NCBI GenBank assembly: GCA_022827185.1
Contig: JAJDTM010000003.1
Location: forward strand, 124,001 to 188,000
DNA from: Candidatus Poribacteria bacterium
GTDB taxonomy: Bacteria > Poribacteria > WGA-4E > WGA-3G
Direction: 5' to 3'
Length of the DNA stretch: 64,000 bases
The position numbers and the translations under genes were made by a program. Shown piece by piece: positions 13,776-49,332 of this stretch. The stretch's first letter is position 1. Every line of letters starts with the position of its first letter. Below the pieces are notes generated by a model, which worked only from the letters and a program-made list of their open reading frames with translations, did not search any database and was not told the DNA's origin.

Positions 13776-15023
13776 GTGGAAGCCATTCAATATCACAAAA
13801 GCATCCCACGTTATCTCGCAATGCGCTACTTTGGCAAACGGTGGCGGGGTCTCTACACGTCGCCGTTTTCCTGTGTACATCTCGTTGACATCCCGGAGCC
13901 AGAGCTGGTAACCCCTGAATGGGTCAAGGTCAAGACTCGGCTCAGCGGGATTTGTGGTTCCGATTTAGCGACAATCACTGCGAAGGGCAGTCCTTATTTC
14001 TCGCCGTTCACATCGACACCTTTTGTGTTAGGACATGAGATCGTCGGTGAAATTGTGGAGATCGGTGATGCAGTGGAAGGTTTTCCTGTCGGTGCGCGGG
14101 TGGTGATTGAACCGGCACTTTCGTGTAAGGTAAGAGGGATTTCGCCACCCTGTTATCAATGTCAAGACCTACACTTCGCTAACTGCGAAAATATCACCAA
14201 AGGCGACATCTCCGAAGGCGTTCAGACGGGTTATTGTCGGGATACAGGCGGCGGGTGGAGCCAATATGTGCTCGCGCACCAATCACAACTCCATCTTGTC
14301 CCGGATGATGTTTCGGACGAAATTGCTGTGCTACTCGAACCCTTCGCCTGCGCGATACACGGCGTTTTGAAGGCAAACTACAATACGGCAGACAATATTT
14401 GCGTCATCGGTGGTGGCACGATCGGACTCCTTACCGTCGCAGCACTTCGGATGCTCGGCTATCAAAACCGAATCCTCATCCTCGCCAAGTATCCACACCA
14501 ACAGCAACTGGCACTTGACCTCGGTGCGAATGAGGTAATATTGCCGAATAGCGGTCGGTATACAGTCTTCTGTGACCTCACAGGTTCAGAATCGTATCAA
14601 CCGGAGTTGGGACAACAGGTCTTAATTGGGGGTGTAGATGTTACCTTTGATTGTATCGGTTCCGGTATCACAATAGACGATGCACTCCGTTTCACACACG
14701 CAAACGGTGAAGTCATCTTGCTCGGTATGCCAGCGACCCCGAAAAATATAGACTGGGTCTCGGTTTGGTATAAGCAGTTGAAAGTAGAAGGTGCTTATGC
14801 TTATGGGATCGAAACGCACAACGATGAACAGATCCATACCTTTGCCCTCGGCATGCAGCTCCTCGAAAAAACGGGAGCACAGTTGCGTCCACTGGTAATC
14901 AGACGGTTTCCGCTGCGAGACTACAAACATGCTATACAGACAGCCTTGAACACCGGGAAGACCGGCACAGTGAAAACCGTATTTGACTTACGTACCGATT
15001 CTGCTGGCTACACAATCACCTAA
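13776..15023 (+). CDS. Zinc-dependent alcohol dehydrogenase (MDR superfamily)
   Basis: A 415-residue medium-chain dehydrogenase. Seen: GICGSDL near residue 58 with the catalytic zinc Cys, GHEIVGE near residue 88 with the zinc His and Glu, a structural-zinc region with spaced Cys (SCKVRG, PPCYQCQ, FANCEN) at about residues 112-136, and the NAD(P) glycine motif GGGTIGLL near residue 213. Family members oxidise alcohols or polyols such as sorbitol or threonine. The spacing in the structural-zinc lobe is longer than usual, so this is not a standard Adh. Start GTG at 13776 has only a weak upstream site. The gene ends 10 bp before the DUF6785-type gene, suggesting one operon. Confidence 0.85.
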   Translation: MEAIQYHKSIPRYLAMRYFGKRWRGLYTSPFSCVHLVDIPEPELVTPEWVKVKTRLSGICGSDLATITAKGSPYFSPFTSTPFVLGHEIVGEIVEIGDAVEGFPVGARVVIEPALSCKVRGISPPCYQCQDLHFANCENITKGDISEGVQTGYCRDTGGGWSQYVLAHQSQLHLVPDDVSDEIAVLLEPFACAIHGVLKANYNTADNICVIGGGTIGLLTVAALRMLGYQNRILILAKYPHQQQLALDLGANEVILPNSGRYTVFCDLTGSESYQPELGQQVLIGGVDVTFDCIGSGITIDDALRFTHANGEVILLGMPATPKNIDWVSVWYKQLKVEGAYAYGIETHNDEQIHTFALGMQLLEKTGAQLRPLVIRRFPLRDYKHAIQTALNTGKTGTVKTVFDLRTDSAGYTIT

Positions 15024-15033
15024 TACAATCCCT

Positions 15034-17007
15034 ATGACCCGTCCTGTCACTTCGCAGCACCTCCCGCAAACGACGCATCCACCTACTTATCGCGGTATCA
15101 CAGCACGGAGTGTCCTCATCGGCATGCTGGCTGTCGTATGCCAATGTCTTGCTACCCCTTATAATGATTTCCACGTCGGCGGCACCTATCTCGCAGGGAA
15201 CCATCTGCCGATCGCTGTTGTCTTCGTGATGCTGGTTTTCATTCTCAGTGTCAATGTACTTCTCAAGAGACTGGTACCCGGCACCGAATTGCAAGGCAGC
15301 GAACTGCTCGTCATCTGGGGCATGATGCTGGTTGCATCGGGGATCCCGTCTTCAGGGTTGATGCGTTACCTCGTCCCGCTCGCTGTCAGTCCGGTCTATT
15401 TCGCAACCCCCGAAAACGAGTGGATCACGCTTTTCCATCAGCATCTTCCAGACTGGATGGTCGTGAAGGATCCGAAAGCGGTTTTCTATTTCTATGAGCA
15501 ATTGCCGGATGGTGACCGGATCCCATGGGCAGCATGGGTGAAACCGATTGTCGGATGGAGCGCGTTTGTCCTCATTTTCTATTTCGTTACTATCTGCTGG
15601 ACGGTGCTCCTCCGCAAACAGTGGATAGAACATGAAAGGTTCACTTTCCCGCTCGTCCAATTGCCAATAGAGATGTTTCAATCCCCGTCAGGTGGTAGCC
15701 TCGTGAACAGGTTTTTCAAATCTCGGCTGATGTGGTCAGGCTTTGCGATACCTGTCCTATTGCACGGCTTGAAGGGATTGCACCTCTACTTTCCATCTAT
15801 ACCAAACCCGCCGCTCTATTTCCCGATCGCCCAATTCTTTACTGAAAAACCCTTCTCTGCTATGGCATGGTGGCCCTCGGTGAATCTCTTCATTTACCCT
15901 TCAGTCATCGCTATTGTCTACCTGCTCACGCTCGAAATATCGTTTAGTTTCTGGTTCTTCTTCCTACTCGGCAAGATGGAGACGGTGCTTATCTACGCAA
16001 CGGGTTCAAAAGTGAATCAGTGGAATTTCCATCAAAACCAACAGATGGGTGCGCTGTTGGTCTTTATCGGATTTATTCTATTTATCGGCAAACGGCATTT
16101 CGGACGCGCATTCGCTACGATTTTCGGTAAACACGCAAACAACGATATGAACGAACCTTTACCTTACGTCTGGGCGGTATGGGGTATGATTGGCGGGATC
16201 CTACTGCTTACATTAATATGTAGCCTTGCGGGGATGAGTGTTTGGGTGGCACTCTTTATACTGGGTATCTTCCTCGCTATCACAACGGTAGGCACGTGGA
16301 TGGTGACCAACGGTGGTTTGATGTTTATCCTTTATTCTTTTTTGCCGGGTGAATATCTGATTACGCTGTTCGGCAGTGGGCGAGTCAATGCACCGAGTTG
16401 GACGTTGGTCGCTTATGAAAGAGTGCTAATGTTCGATATGCGGGAGATCCTGATGCCGAGCGTGATGAACAACTTTAAACTCGCGGAACCGCTCCGTCTG
16501 AAACAACGTCCGTTTCTACTGGCGATGGGTATCGCGATTGTCTTGGCGATGGGTGTCTCCTACTACTCGTCCATAGATCTCGCCTATACACACGGCGCGG
16601 TGAACCTACAGCACTGGACCTATATGATCTCCACAACGTCCCCATTTAATCGACTCACAAGTATTCTTCAACACCCCACCGGTATTGAATTGGAACGGTT
16701 CGGTTCGTTTATCTTCGGGGGTGCCACGATGTTCGGGATGCTCTGGATGCGGCACCACTACCTCTGGTGGAAACTGCATCCGATCGGTTCTCTCATGATG
16801 ACGAGTTATGCGACCTACTGTTTCTGGGGTTCATTTTTTATCGGTTGGTTCCTCAAATACACCACACTCAAGTTCGGCGGTGTTGCCTACTACCGTAAAC
16901 TCCGTCCGCTTATTTTAGGTGTTGTGTTAGGTGAATGCTTCATCGGTGGCATCTGGATTATTGTTGGATTGATGACTGGTATTGGGTATCGTCTACTACC
17001 GGGTTGA
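15034..17007 (+). CDS. DUF6785-type polytopic membrane protein, second copy
   Basis: A 657-residue paralogue of the protein at 5014. Shared signatures: YFATPENEW followed by LFHQHLPDWMVV, then RKQWIEHERF and LVQLPIEM; about 14 hydrophobic segments. An in-frame ATG at 14983 lies inside the dehydrogenase gene; the ATG at 15034, 10 bp after that gene's stop, is preferred and gives an N-terminus similar in length to the paralogue. No strong ribosome site is seen, so translational coupling to the dehydrogenase is likely. The transport role is a family-level guess; the dehydrogenase neighbour hints at uptake and oxidation of one substrate. Confidence 0.78.
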   Translation: MTRPVTSQHLPQTTHPPTYRGITARSVLIGMLAVVCQCLATPYNDFHVGGTYLAGNHLPIAVVFVMLVFILSVNVLLKRLVPGTELQGSELLVIWGMMLVASGIPSSGLMRYLVPLAVSPVYFATPENEWITLFHQHLPDWMVVKDPKAVFYFYEQLPDGDRIPWAAWVKPIVGWSAFVLIFYFVTICWTVLLRKQWIEHERFTFPLVQLPIEMFQSPSGGSLVNRFFKSRLMWSGFAIPVLLHGLKGLHLYFPSIPNPPLYFPIAQFFTEKPFSAMAWWPSVNLFIYPSVIAIVYLLTLEISFSFWFFFLLGKMETVLIYATGSKVNQWNFHQNQQMGALLVFIGFILFIGKRHFGRAFATIFGKHANNDMNEPLPYVWAVWGMIGGILLLTLICSLAGMSVWVALFILGIFLAITTVGTWMVTNGGLMFILYSFLPGEYLITLFGSGRVNAPSWTLVAYERVLMFDMREILMPSVMNNFKLAEPLRLKQRPFLLAMGIAIVLAMGVSYYSSIDLAYTHGAVNLQHWTYMISTTSPFNRLTSILQHPTGIELERFGSFIFGGATMFGMLWMRHHYLWWKLHPIGSLMMTSYATYCFWGSFFIGWFLKYTTLKFGGVAYYRKLRPLILGVVLGECFIGGIWIIVGLMTGIGYRLLPG

Positions 17008-17031: not shown

Positions 17032-17058
17032 GCAGGCGAGGTTTCAAACCTCGCCTGC
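17032..17058. repeat. AGGTT palindrome, copy 1 (possible terminator)
   Basis: GCAGGCGAGGTTT, one base, then its exact complement AAACCTCGCCTGC: a 13-base-pair stem. It sits just after the stop of the membrane protein gene. Related palindromes occur at 32.35, 37.27, 38.44, 48.44 and 58.67 kb. No T-run follows this copy. Confidence 0.7.
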
Positions 17059-17095: not shown

Positions 17096-17144
17096 CTGCA
17101 CTATTTCGTGCAATGTGTTATGAGATTTGCACTATTTGGTGCAA
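17096..17144 (+). promoter_or_regulatory. Two palindromic activator-type sites
   Basis: Site 1: CTGCACTATTTCGTGCAA (17096-17113). Site 2: TTGCACTATTTGGTGCAA (17127-17144), a perfect 6-base inverted repeat around 6 bases. Their centres are 31 bp apart, close to three helical turns, so both lie on one face of the DNA. They are 70-105 bp upstream of the expected start of the sigma-54-type promoter, where enhancer-binding activators bind. The sites resemble NtrC boxes but the spacer is one base shorter. Confidence 0.55.
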
Positions 17145-17181
17145 TTTTTGTCAAGAAACCCAGCGATAATGCGATCTAAAC

Positions 17182-17197
17182 TGGCATAAAACTTGCT
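17182..17197 (+). promoter_or_regulatory. Sigma-54 (-24/-12) promoter
   Basis: TGGCATAAAACTTGCT matches the -24/-12 consensus; GG (17183-17184) and GC (17195-17196) are exactly 10 bases apart. The expected start point near 17208 leaves a leader of about 66 bases before the lipoprotein ATG at 17274. Confidence 0.65.
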
Positions 17198-17273
17198 CAT
17201 AATATTCACAGCATGAATTTTCCTAAATTAACGAATAAAAGACCTTTACGAGATAAAACCGAGGTGAAAACCA

Positions 17274-17864
17274 ATGTTGAGTAGAATCTATTCTTTGCAC
17301 GTATGTGTGGCGATGGGAATGTTGCTGTTCATCGGCGGTTGTGCGTCCTTGTTTCAGCCACTTCCGAAACGAATAAAGGCGACACACCTATCCTGCAAGA
17401 CGTATCCCTCGCTCGTTGATGGCAATCTTACCACGAATAGTTTCCTGAAGGTAAAAGGCTTTGTTGAAAAGGATAGCACTGCTTATAAGCACAGTACCCG
17501 ATACGGCGATTGGGTGGAAGGTAAACATAGGACTGAGGCACTGGTTCAACTTGACACGCTTACGCATGTCGCTTACATTAAGGTGCATCCAATCTCAAAC
17601 ATTTATCGTCTTTCAGTAGAAACATCAACGGCAGAGATAGCGGATGAAAAAGCATCTCTCTTTGAGCCAGTGAAAAGTCATAAGATTGCGAGATCCGAAA
17701 ATGGTGCGGTGATACGTATCGACATTGACAGAACCGTGCGGATGCTAAGGGTTACTATCTATGCCAATCGTGATTTAGCACAGACCACACAAGACCCGTT
17801 GACGCAGAAAACCAAAGTGTCCTTTAAGGATATTGTGATACGGGAAATTCAGGTGTATCAGTGA
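17274..17864 (+). CDS. Secreted lipoprotein of unknown function
   Basis: A 196-residue protein with a lipoprotein signal peptide: hydrophobic stretch at residues 8-22 and lipobox FIGGC, with Cys at about residue 23 as the lipidation site. The mature part is beta-rich and polar; TLTHVAYIKVHPISNIYRLSVE and the final IVIREIQVYQ recall the edge strands of discoidin-like (F5/8C) folds, but no family is recognised. GAGGTG precedes the ATG. It is the only gene behind the sigma-54-type promoter and tandem activator sites, so its expression is probably switched on by a specific signal rather than constitutive. Confidence 0.75.
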   Translation: MLSRIYSLHVCVAMGMLLFIGGCASLFQPLPKRIKATHLSCKTYPSLVDGNLTTNSFLKVKGFVEKDSTAYKHSTRYGDWVEGKHRTEALVQLDTLTHVAYIKVHPISNIYRLSVETSTAEIADEKASLFEPVKSHKIARSENGAVIRIDIDRTVRMLRVTIYANRDLAQTTQDPLTQKTKVSFKDIVIREIQVYQ

Positions 17865-38443: not shown

Positions 38444-38464
38444 GGCGAGGTTAGAAACCTCGCC
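38444..38464. repeat. AGGTT palindrome, copy after mdh
   Basis: GGCGAGGTT (38444-38452), loop AGA, AACCTCGCC (38456-38464): a perfect 9-base-pair hairpin between two convergent genes, so it could end both transcripts. No T-run follows. Confidence 0.6.
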
Positions 38465-39240: not shown

Positions 39241-41169
39241 TTAATTTTTCTTCTCATCCTCGTCAACGACTTCGTATTCAGCGTCAACGACTTCGCTATC
39301 CTCGGATTCAGCTGTCGGATCAGCAGCGGATGGATCTCCCTGCGCAGCACCCGGATCTGTGCCTGCAGTCTGTTGGTACATCTGTGCGGAGACTTCATGC
39401 CAGACCTGCGTTAACTCGTCCGTTGCGGATTGAATCTCGGCGTGGTTGTCTGCCTCTAACGCTTGTTTGACACGAGCGACAGCAGCGTTGACCTTCTCCT
39501 TAGCAGCAGCATCTACCTTATCGCCAAACTCACTGAGGTTTTTCTCAGTCTCGTAAACCATAGAATCTGCCTGGTTCCGCGCCTCAACTTCCTCGCGTTT
39601 CTGCTTATCCTCTTCCGCGTGTGCTTCGGCATCTTTCACCATCTGATCAATCTCGGCTTCCGAAAGTCCAGAGGACGCGGTAATGGTAATTTTCTGCTCT
39701 TTACCGGTCGCGGTATCTTTCGCGGATACATTAAGGATGCCGTTTGCGTCAATATCAAACGTCACCTCAATCTGCGGTATACCTCTCGGTGCTGGCGGCA
39801 ACTCACTCAAACGGAAACGTCCGATGGTTTTGTTATAAACCGCCTGTTCGCGTTCGCCTTGAAGGACATGCACATCAACCGATGTCTGGTTGTTCTCAGG
39901 TGTCGTGAATATGTTCGATTTCTTTGTAGGAATTGTTGTGTTCCTGTCAATCAGTCGTGTGAACATACCGCCGAGTGTCTCAATTCCAAGCGAAAGGGGT
40001 GTAACATCCAACAAGAGAATGTCTTTGACCTCTTCATCGCCTGCAAGGACACCGCCCTGAATTGCGGCTCCAATTGCGACGACTTCATCTGGATTGACCC
40101 CTTTGTGCGGCTCTTTACCGAAGAGTTGTTCCACGGCTTCTTGCACCTTCGGCATGCGTGTTTGTCCACCAACAAGGATCACTTCGTCGATATCGGAGGG
40201 TTGTATCTCAGCATCCGCGAGTGCTTGTCGGCACGGCTCAAGCGACCGTTGGACGAGATCATCTGTAATCTGCTCCAGTTTTGCGCGGGTAAGTGTCAAG
40301 TTAAGGTGCTTCGGGCCGCTGGCATCAACGGTGACAAACGGTAGGTTTATGTCTGTCTGTAAAGTGCTGGAGAGTTCACATTTTGCGGTTTCTGCTGCCT
40401 CTTTTAAGCGTTGCAATGCCATCTGATCACTGCGGAGATCAATGCCTTGGCTACTGAGAAATTCTTGTGCCATCCAGTCAATAATCACTTGGTCAAAATC
40501 GTCGCCGCCGAGATGCGTATCGCCATTTGTACTCTTGACCTCAAAGACTCCGTCCCCGATTTCAAGAATAGAAATATCAAATGTCCCACCACCGAGATCG
40601 TAAACAGCAATTCTCTTGTCGCCTTCGCTTTGTAACCCATAGGCGAGGGATGCAGCGGTCGGTTCATTGATAATCCGCTCGACTTCTAACCCCGCGATTT
40701 TGCCTGCGTCTGCCGTCGCCTGACGTTGGGAATCGTTAAAGTAGGCGGGAACGGTAATAACTGCCTTTGTAACATCTTCTCCGAGGTACGCCTCGGCAGT
40801 CTCTTTCATTTTCCGTAAAACCATCGCGGAGATTTCGGGCGGTGTGTAATCTTTACCCTCAATATTTACAGCGACATCACCATCTTTATCGGCTTTTAAT
40901 TCATAAGGCACACGAGAAGCATCATCACCGATCTCGCTATGTTTTCGTCCCATGAACCTTTTAATCGAAAAAATTGTATTTTCAGGGTTTGTGGTAGCTT
41001 GTCTTTTGGCAACCAGCCCTACAGGACGTTCCCCTTCTTTGGTAAAAGCGACAACCGAGGGAGTCGTCCGATTCCCCTCTGCGTTTTCGATCACCTTAGC
41101 ATCGCCGCTCTCTAAGACAGCCACGCATGAATTTGTTGTTCCTAAATCAATTCCTATGACCTTGCTCAT
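39241..41169 (-). CDS. dnaK: Molecular chaperone DnaK (Hsp70)
   Basis: A full-length Hsp70 of 642 residues. Seen: [15 protein letters not shown] at the N-terminus (phosphate 1), [15 protein letters not shown] near residue 195, [13 protein letters not shown] near 335, [14 protein letters not shown] near 390 at the linker to the substrate domain, and the acidic C-terminal tail that ends in [12 protein letters not shown]. It binds unfolded proteins in an ATP-driven cycle with DnaJ and GrpE, whose genes are not here. GAGGAG precedes the ATG. The promoter looks vegetative; I saw no CIRCE element. Confidence 0.97.
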
Positions 41170-41230: not shown

Positions 41231-41358
41231 AGACCCTATTGACGGACGCACCTCAGAAGGAAACGACGTACCTACCAGCAAATGGTTAAATAACCGCGAG
41301 CACAGCTTCCCACCAGAAAACAGATCGACAATATACCTTAGCTACGAAATAGTGTGCA

Positions 41359-41431
41359 ATATCCGTGCCAATATTAATTGGTTAAAATAGTCGAAATTCT
41401 TACTGAATGTCTGCCAAATTGGCACGGATAT
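41359..41431. repeat. 14-base perfect inverted repeat upstream of dnaK
   Basis: ATATCCGTGCCAAT (41359-41372) and ATTGGCACGGATAT (41418-41431) are exact complements, separated by 45 bases. They lie between the dnaK promoter and the LamG gene. No frame fits between them. They could be a long-stem terminator for the LamG gene or the ends of a very small element. Confidence 0.6.
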
Positions 41432-41463: not shown

Positions 41464-42258
41464 TTACTGCACCCTATATTTTTCCTTGACGGATCCCCAT
41501 GTAATCGGCAATTTTGCTTCCGGATCAACCGCCAAAATCTCTTGGATACCGCCTTGGATCTCTTTAATCTCATCCTGTGATAACCCTCGATCAAAGAGTG
41601 CAAAGTCGTCAATAATACCATTATAGTAACGGTTGAGAGCGGGGGGTTCCTCCATGCCAATCATAAGCGGTGCATCAATCGGCACCAGTTTATCGCCAGT
41701 CTTCGGGTAATCTATCAACACCTCACCATCAAGATAGGTGGTCCACCACTTTCCACTCTGAAACGAAACAGCGACATGCTGCCATTTGTCTTTGACAACA
41801 TCGCGCGGACTCTGTGCGGGGACATTCCGTCCACCTGTCAATTTCCAACCCATCCATATAAAACCGTCCGGATGGAGCAGCACCTCAAAAAATTCCTGTA
41901 CATCCGGTCCCTTCGCCGCGATCAGTTGCCACGTACCGGGACCCACCTTCAGCGTCGGTTTAATCCAAGCGGCAATGGTAATGCCATCGGTAAATTCAAA
42001 CGCATCGGAATGTTCTACCCGAACAATCCCATCTTTCCCACCGAAATTGACCGCCTTCCCGAATTTACCGTCGCTCCACGACGTATCACCCTCTAATTTC
42101 CCATCCTGTTTGTTCCCAGACAGATCCTTGACAGTCTTGCCCGCCCCCTCTTCAAAAGCGAAATAGACGACTAAACCTTCGAGTTCTGCGGCTGTGCTAA
42201 CGCTTTGGAAACTCCCTATCAGATACACAGCACACAAGCAAATTAAAAATGGACGCAT
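41464..42258 (-). CDS. Secreted LamG-domain protein with KLxxTWGxIK-type tail
   Basis: A 264-residue protein with a signal peptide (PFLICLCAVYLIGSFQSVSTA). Residues 25-235 form one LamG/concanavalin-like jelly roll: LVVYFAFEEGAGKTVKDLSG at its start, ITIAAWIKP near residue 93, WQHVAVSFQSGKWWTTYLDG near residue 160 and YYNGIIDDFALFDRGLS near residue 215 are all classic. Such domains bind carbohydrate or mediate adhesion. The protein ends VDPEAKLPITWGSVKEKYRVQ, the tail shared with the secreted proteins at 34008, 48496 and 57914. GGAGG precedes the ATG. Confidence 0.88.
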   Translation of the reverse strand: MRPFLICLCAVYLIGSFQSVSTAAELEGLVVYFAFEEGAGKTVKDLSGNKQDGKLEGDTSWSDGKFGKAVNFGGKDGIVRVEHSDAFEFTDGITIAAWIKPTLKVGPGTWQLIAAKGPDVQEFFEVLLHPDGFIWMGWKLTGGRNVPAQSPRDVVKDKWQHVAVSFQSGKWWTTYLDGEVLIDYPKTGDKLVPIDAPLMIGMEEPPALNRYYNGIIDDFALFDRGLSQDEIKEIQGGIQEILAVDPEAKLPITWGSVKEKYRVQ

Positions 42259-48495: not shown

Positions 48496-49332
48496 ATGAA
48501 AAGTATTTCCTGGCTGACAATCACGATCGCGGTTGTCTTTGTACTGGCTATCGAAACCTCACAATCTGTATTCGCGCAGGCGAACGATATCAAGGGGGGT
48601 CCCTTGAAAAACGACGAACTCCTGAAAGATCCAAACCCGAACGGTGACGAACTGAGGGAAGATCACTCTGACAATAAAAACTGGATTACCAAGTGGTATG
48701 GTCCCGATGGCAACTATGAGAACAATGGCGGTTTTGGGGCATCCTCAAAGATAGATCTCATTGACAAAGGCACTAATGGTACACTCACGGAATCCAAACT
48801 TTCGACAGGAGGAGGACTGAACCTCACAAAAATAGTCAAGATGAACTGGGAAGACGCTAACGGGGGGCCTCGGGAGTGGACGGTCTTTGAACTCGATCCG
48901 GCAGACGGGCACAACATGAACAGAGGCGGTCCTGTTGATAATATTGATACTTACGGAATGATCGTTATTCACTCGCCTATAGCGAGAAAAGCCGTTATGT
49001 CTCCTGCACATGATGACCACGCCCAAATTTGGATTAACGGCGAAAAATGGTACAACAACTCCAGATGGACAGGTGCCGCACGAACAATCCTTCATAACGT
49101 CGAAGTCGATTTGAAAAAAGGTGGCAATGTGCTGCTCTATCGGGTTGGTGAATCCGCGGGCGCCGCGTATATCAACCTCCATTTTGATGAGGAGACCCAC
49201 GAAAAAACCAGGATCTATCCCGATAAATCAAATGACCAGAAGAGTTTCTTCGCCGAAATCCAAGGTTTCCTTGATGTTGAACCTGTAGGTAAGTTGACGA
49301 CGACTTGGGCAGACATCAAACAACGGAAATAA
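48496..49332 (+). CDS. Secreted protein with KLxxTWADIK tail
   Basis: A 278-residue protein with a signal peptide (SWLTITIAVVFVLAIETSQS, cleavage near VFAQA). The mature part starts with an unusual acidic, Asn-rich region and then a beta-rich domain; HAQIWINGEKWYNN near residue 178 and NVLLYRVGESAGAAYINL near 214 resemble PA14/sialate-esterase-like carbohydrate-binding jelly rolls (W-x-N-G-x motif), without a clear family. The last residues are VEPVGKLTTTWADIKQRK, the tail shared with three other secreted proteins here. AGAAGG precedes the ATG. It has the strongest promoter in the window, so it is probably abundant. Confidence 0.78.
   Translation: MKSISWLTITIAVVFVLAIETSQSVFAQANDIKGGPLKNDELLKDPNPNGDELREDHSDNKNWITKWYGPDGNYENNGGFGASSKIDLIDKGTNGTLTESKLSTGGGLNLTKIVKMNWEDANGGPREWTVFELDPADGHNMNRGGPVDNIDTYGMIVIHSPIARKAVMSPAHDDHAQIWINGEKWYNNSRWTGAARTILHNVEVDLKKGGNVLLYRVGESAGAAYINLHFDEETHEKTRIYPDKSNDQKSFFAEIQGFLDVEPVGKLTTTWADIKQRK

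Follow-up and report, generated by a model that had tools for sequence, protein, structure and literature searches.

The described systems closest to the promoter studied here pair sigma-54 with an NtrC-family activator. In E. coli the NtrC box spans 17 bp (TGCACCAnnnTGGTGCA; PMC8743547), and that of AtoC consists of two 20-bp sites in inverted orientation (GCTATGCAGAAATTTGCACA; PMC3118216). In the PrsK/PrsR PEP-CTERM system, a response regulator and a kinase control single-gene surface-protein targets through a sigma-54 box and a 17-nt activator motif that is sometimes repeated ~63 nt upstream (Haft et al. 2006, PMC1569441). More generally, Francke et al. 2011 presented sigma-54 as a controller of the bacterial exterior (PMC3162934); Poribacteria are not mentioned there, and the motif and regulon reported below are not described. 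The Poribacteria single-cell genome paper does not mention sigma factors and describes possible C-terminal domains of the Por type (TIGR04183) in the absence of the Por machinery (PMC3909097). Our literature search for a sigma-54 regulon in Poribacteria found none.

The present locus shares with the NtrC regulon the TGCAC/GTGCA half-sites, paired sites near -100/-70, sigma-54 and an NtrC-like candidate activator; unlike that regulon, it has a 16-bp oriented site instead of the 17-bp box, and envelope targets. Common to this locus and PrsK/PrsR are the sigma-54 box, an upstream motif, surface-protein targets (5/16 of which here end in a shared C-terminal tail) and the combination of regulator and kinase; the PrsK/PrsR activator motif, however, contains TTTACA. 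The envelope and lipoprotein targets are also in keeping with the sigma-54 exterior-control survey, and the domain layout of our candidate enhancer-binding protein (EBP) is similar to that of AtoC in AtoSC. The circuit apparently works like other NtrC-family/sigma-54 systems, with a regulon and a motif that appear to be undescribed. Taken as a whole, the locus is very probably an enhancer-dependent sigma-54 promoter, one of about 16 that would make up a family-conserved envelope regulon.

A probable sigma-54 promoter with two upstream sites

The window, the 64-kb stretch of DNA analysed, corresponds to C57:124001-188000 in a 6.1-Mb draft genome of Candidatus Poribacteria. Poribacteria are an uncultured, largely sponge-associated phylum. 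The promoter region comprises the following features:

14983..17007, + strand: upstream gene (ORF), 674-aa membrane protein DUF6785/DUF6784 (PF20581, E 1.3e-152; PF20580)
17035..17055, no strand assigned: GGCGAGGTTTCAAACCTCGCC, a perfect inverted repeat that follows the upstream gene and recurs at 38444-38464
17097..17112, + strand: distal activator site TGCACTATTTCGTGCA, centre 17104.5, about -104, matching the genome consensus
17128..17143, + strand: proximal activator site TGCACTATTTGGTGCA, centre 17135.5, about -73, matching the genome consensus
17182..17197, + strand: sigma-54 -24/-12 box TGGCATAAAACTTGCT, GG at 17183-17184, GC at 17195-17196
17208 (within 1-2 bases), + strand: predicted transcription start (+1), from the box spacing
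17261..17267, + strand: likely ribosome-binding site GAGGTGA, from the sequence
17274..17864, + strand: target gene, a 196-aa lipoprotein with lipobox Cys23, the ORF directly behind the promoter

An earlier sequence-only reading had described a -24/-12 box with exact GG-N10-GC spacing, two upstream sites with centres 31 bp apart at about -104 and -73, and a lipoprotein gene as the gene behind them, all of which we could read directly from the bases. The box has no mismatch to the pattern TGGCAYRNNNNTTGCW and fits the consensus TGGCAYR-N4-TTGCW by which sigma-54 promoters are recognised; the predicted +1 and the site centres were computed with the C of the box GC taken as -12. Both sites are 16 bp long (the spanning 18-mers are CTGCACTATTTCGTGCAA for the distal and TTGCACTATTTGGTGCAA for the proximal site) and lie at -77 and -46 relative to the box, positions that recur in three relatives (G019, G001 and G033). 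This site-to-box distance is 14 bp off the usual value, an offset that the three relatives share, and the two site copies are unusually symmetrical compared with the genome consensus, with TGCAC in the left half. Judged within the 64-kb window alone, the parts of the promoter are modest evidence; GCAC-N6-GTGC is expected by chance 0.84 times per 64 kb.

The DUF6785/DUF6784 gene also precedes the equivalent promoter in G033. The inverted repeat behind it (two matches in the window versus none in shuffles) is possibly a terminator or a (mobile) repeat element and probably lies outside the promoter proper. The same perfect repeat, GGCGAGGTTNNNAACCTCGCC, is found at 17035-17055 and 38444-38464, and the L127 promoter has a similar repeat upstream of it.

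The architecture recurs across the genome

The sequence-only reading had proposed searching the genome for rpoN and for further copies of the sites upstream of other -24/-12 boxes. Both searches were productive: rpoN is present (E 1.4e-58), and two sites were found at 16 of the 55 strict boxes with usable context. The genome also encodes 14 strong PF00158 proteins, of which 13 have a loop of the GAFTGA type, and rpoN and enhancer-binding proteins are found together with upstream sites at looping distance. The strict box occurs 56 times in the genome versus twice for the reversed pattern, and TGCACN6GTGCA 15 times versus once for its control. Allowing up to three mismatches, the 16/55 paired sites compare with 0.34 in shuffles; at up to two mismatches the figures are 14/55 and 0.00. 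Two sites were seen in two of the downstream control stretches of the 55 promoters. This recurrence at genome scale (16/55 versus 0.34, 56 versus 2) indicates that the promoter pattern is not due to chance, and the combination of box and paired sites is more than a single case. The proposed enhancer-dependent layout is thus supported by rpoN and by its recurrence in the genome and, as described below, in the family.

The geometry is tightly kept. The centres of the paired sites are 31 bp apart in ten of the 16 promoters, 30 bp in three, 32 bp in two and 33 bp in one, and in 13/16 the centre of the proximal site precedes the box by 59-60 bp, the window promoter (-46) being one of the three with another offset. 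The consensus of 33 sites, TGCMCYATTTYGTGCA, is an imperfect inverted repeat with a nearly invariant right half (GTGCA), a left half that is mostly TGCCC and a directional ATTT core. Accordingly oriented matches dominate, with 31 forward versus three reverse, two of the latter being near-symmetrical sites counted both ways. The box, the sites, their geometry, recurrence and conservation, and the presence of rpoN are established by sequence statistics.

The predicted targets in the window's genome, with domains taken from Pfam or, for those without a listed domain, assigned by reading the sequence, are:

L064: DUF4159/TonB-like
L018, L027: vWA proteins, N-terminus similar to the DUF4159/TonB-like protein
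L074: MoxR-type ATPase
L010, L032, L071: TolB-like propellers
L002, L039: LamG
L029: YCF48-like
L084: WD40
L005: YibE/F
L035: PhyH
L011, L044 and the window gene: lipoprotein-like genes

Strict sigma-54 boxes were also seen ahead of dnaK, groEL, one hsp20 gene and one Clp gene (a box in the window; L026, L077, L017), the example in the window being a box at 41355-41370 (- strand) ahead of dnaK at 39241-41169 (- strand). These chaperone-gene boxes carry a different upstream palindrome resembling TGCCAAWWTGGCA, which may indicate a second sub-regulon, of chaperone genes, served by an activator of its own. Some 90 bp ahead of the L021 and L043 boxes stands an inverted repeat of yet another, third type (TTGGACAGAAGTGTCCAG / TTGAACAAAACTGTCCAG).

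Conservation and probable history of the regulon

Site plus box was found in all 59 genomes of the window's family, and the tandem-site pattern in 57/59 with no reversed-control matches; across all 85 genomes of the phylum, the reversed-control search for site plus box returned none. The window promoter is thereby, by comparison of sequences, a predicted member of a conserved regulon, which goes beyond what the reading of a single window could show. Outside the family, site plus box is sparse. Nearly all of the outgroup loci that we examined (families f2, f3, f4, f5 and f8) precede a gene with a TonB-like N-terminus, a label that rests on an N-terminal membrane stretch and a proline-rich segment; at one f3 locus (L288), site plus box precedes a WD40-type protein instead. 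The one member of this gene family that was tested comes from the genome of the window and carries DUF4159 at its C-terminus. A plain TonB identity for the outgroup target was rejected, as Pfam gives DUF4159 and no TonB domain. Since the outgroup copies sit before the gene with the TonB-like N-terminus, the ancestral target was probably this DUF4159/TonB-like envelope gene, and the regulon appears to have expanded later, in the window's family, to other envelope and surface proteins.

Sigma-54 usage differs strongly between families: compared with 56 strict boxes versus two controls in the window's genome, the counts are 31 versus 2 in G061, 17 versus 6 in G071 and 14 versus 7 in G077.

The lipoprotein keeps the same kind of predicted control

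The tandem-site sigma-54 promoter stands ahead of the lipoprotein gene in 23 of 30 family members, our genome included. The gene lies directly behind the promoter, with the -77/-46 geometry, in our genome and in G019, G001 and G033; in the other promoter-bearing orthologues it is distal, after TolB-like and lipoprotein genes and mostly with a -101/-71 geometry, and G044 has a transposase-like ORF between promoter and gene. Most of the 7/30 orthologues without such a promoter are either more distantly related copies or situated at the end of a contig. Because the lipoprotein keeps one type of control though its operons change, these comparisons argue that the control matters. Cys23 of the lipobox is invariant across 23 aligned sequences. 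A Pfam and NCBIfam profile search with the lipoprotein gave no match; its predicted model, of low confidence (pLDDT 53), resembles a CBM32/discoidin sandwich, which offers a lead to a CBM32/discoidin-like fold.

A candidate activator and its kinase

On general sigma-54 biology we infer how such a promoter would work, including EBP binding, looping and activation; the identity of the EBP and the signal are likewise matters of inference. The two head-to-tail 16-bp sites, three helical turns apart, would be bound by an EBP, while sigma-54 RNA polymerase would be held in a closed state at TGGCATAAAACTTGCT. The EBP would contact the polymerase through DNA looping and use ATP to open the complex, so that the lipoprotein would be made only once the activator is switched on, presumably under phospho-control by a kinase. 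The genes that we favour for these roles are:

C5:76224-77615: NtrC-family response regulator, 463 aa, candidate activator
C5:77651-79207: adjacent membrane histidine kinase, HAMP/HisKA

The EBP repertoires of ten regulon-bearing genomes were compared (our own, G002, G004, G007, G011, G013, G020, G022, G026 and G034), and the C5 regulator was the only EBP with an orthologue in all of them. Five families, among them the motif-sharing f5, have a similar recognition helix in this protein; in G082 (family f4) the orthologue is present and a strict site-plus-box match is absent. The gene sits next to that of the kinase and is convergent with rhodanese and TonB-dependent-receptor genes, and the protein is 91% identical to one encoded in the Candidatus Poribacteria record OY282374.1. 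The activator loop reads GAFTDA, which has been listed among the variants compatible with activation (PMC4641369); NorR G266D, which is equal to GAFTDA, still forms open complexes (PMC2941729). A scan for activator sites upstream of EBP genes, as a sign of autoregulation, gave nothing usable. By this phyletic pattern among draft genomes, the activator is probably the C5 regulator, paired with its adjacent kinase.

The same promoter and regulon could instead be served by one of three other EBPs, the receiver-less C59:11032-12468, C10:15063-16574 or C19:111208-112656, an alternative that we hold to be possible and distinctly less probable. All three are widespread in the family and have GAFTGA or GAFSGA loops, and the C59:11923 helix GVRTLHRKL is conserved also in f2, f3 and f5. 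However, C59:11923 is absent from G020 (94% complete, with 17 site-plus-box matches) and from G034, C10 from G011 (96% complete) and C19 from G022 (90% complete), and the C19 helix differs in the motif-sharing G061. Orthologues of C47 and C59:81442 were likewise not found in G007. Since these absences come from drafts that are 84-96% complete, each may be an assembly gap. The receiver-less C59:11923 had been our first choice by phyletic pattern and was demoted because G020 and G034 lack it. The C59:11032-12468 clade (also L164, L240, L250) is represented in outgroup families by a response regulator with a histidine kinase next to it; its member in the window's family has lost the receiver domain and the kinase neighbour.

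We consider it very unlikely that the locus represents a nitrogen-controlled NtrC promoter whose box has become shorter. The half-sites TGCAC/GTGCA are indeed those of NtrC, and the C5 protein scores 440.8 bits on the NtrC equivalog TIGR01818, but this falls below the cut-off of 558.6. Moreover, the sites are 16-bp and not 17-bp, the glnA-type promoter of the genome (L030) lacks such a site, and the regulon targets are envelope proteins. Upstream of the 55 strict boxes we found N6 palindromes and no N7 (17-bp, NtrC-type) GCAC/GTGC palindrome, and the 16-bp site in place of the 17-bp NtrC box supports the earlier suggestion of a different activator. Nor does the candidate reach the cut-offs of two other equivalogs, scoring 355.5 versus 502.6 for PrsR (TIGR02915) and 423.1 versus 714 for AtoC (NF008469). 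Its recognition helix is presumably similar to GISRR of AtoC, which we take as a lead.

Least credible of all is a reading in which the palindromes serve the upstream gene as terminators or hairpins and the match to the box arose by chance: a pattern scan does label TTGCACTATTTGGTGCAATTTTTG terminator-like, but 22 of the 33 sites have a stem-breaking C in the left arm as well as the directional ATTT core, the sites keep a fixed distance to boxes with zero reversed controls, and the upstream gene is already followed by another strong inverted repeat.

A C-terminal tail on exported-looking proteins

Many LamG, propeller and other exported-looking proteins share the C-terminal tail LxVxPxxKLxTTWGxIKxx, with at least 150 matches in our genome (in the window, for example, at 41464-42258, - strand, and 48496-49332, + strand) and 118, 113 and 130 in three further genomes of the phylum, one class other than that of the window being included. 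No NCBIfam or Pfam model matches the tail, and a scan of tailed proteins against TIGR04183 and other tail models gave no match at E 0.01. It looks like a sorting tag. It lacks the PEP motif, transmembrane stretch and basic end of the PEP-CTERM tag; unlike with that tag, most tailed proteins lie outside the regulon. More speculatively, and in our view doubtful, a phylum-specific circuit, analogous to but independent of PrsK/PrsR-PEP-CTERM, might co-express surface proteins bearing this tail, as a new sorting tag, with their handling machinery (the lipoprotein, vWA, MoxR and DUF4159 proteins).

Collectively, the site definition, the list of targets, the probable ancestral target and a named activator candidate with its kinase would make envelope control in Poribacteria testable. 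A single site around which a regulon has apparently grown across the family, and a lipoprotein that switches operons while its control stays the same, would present a clean case of regulon expansion.
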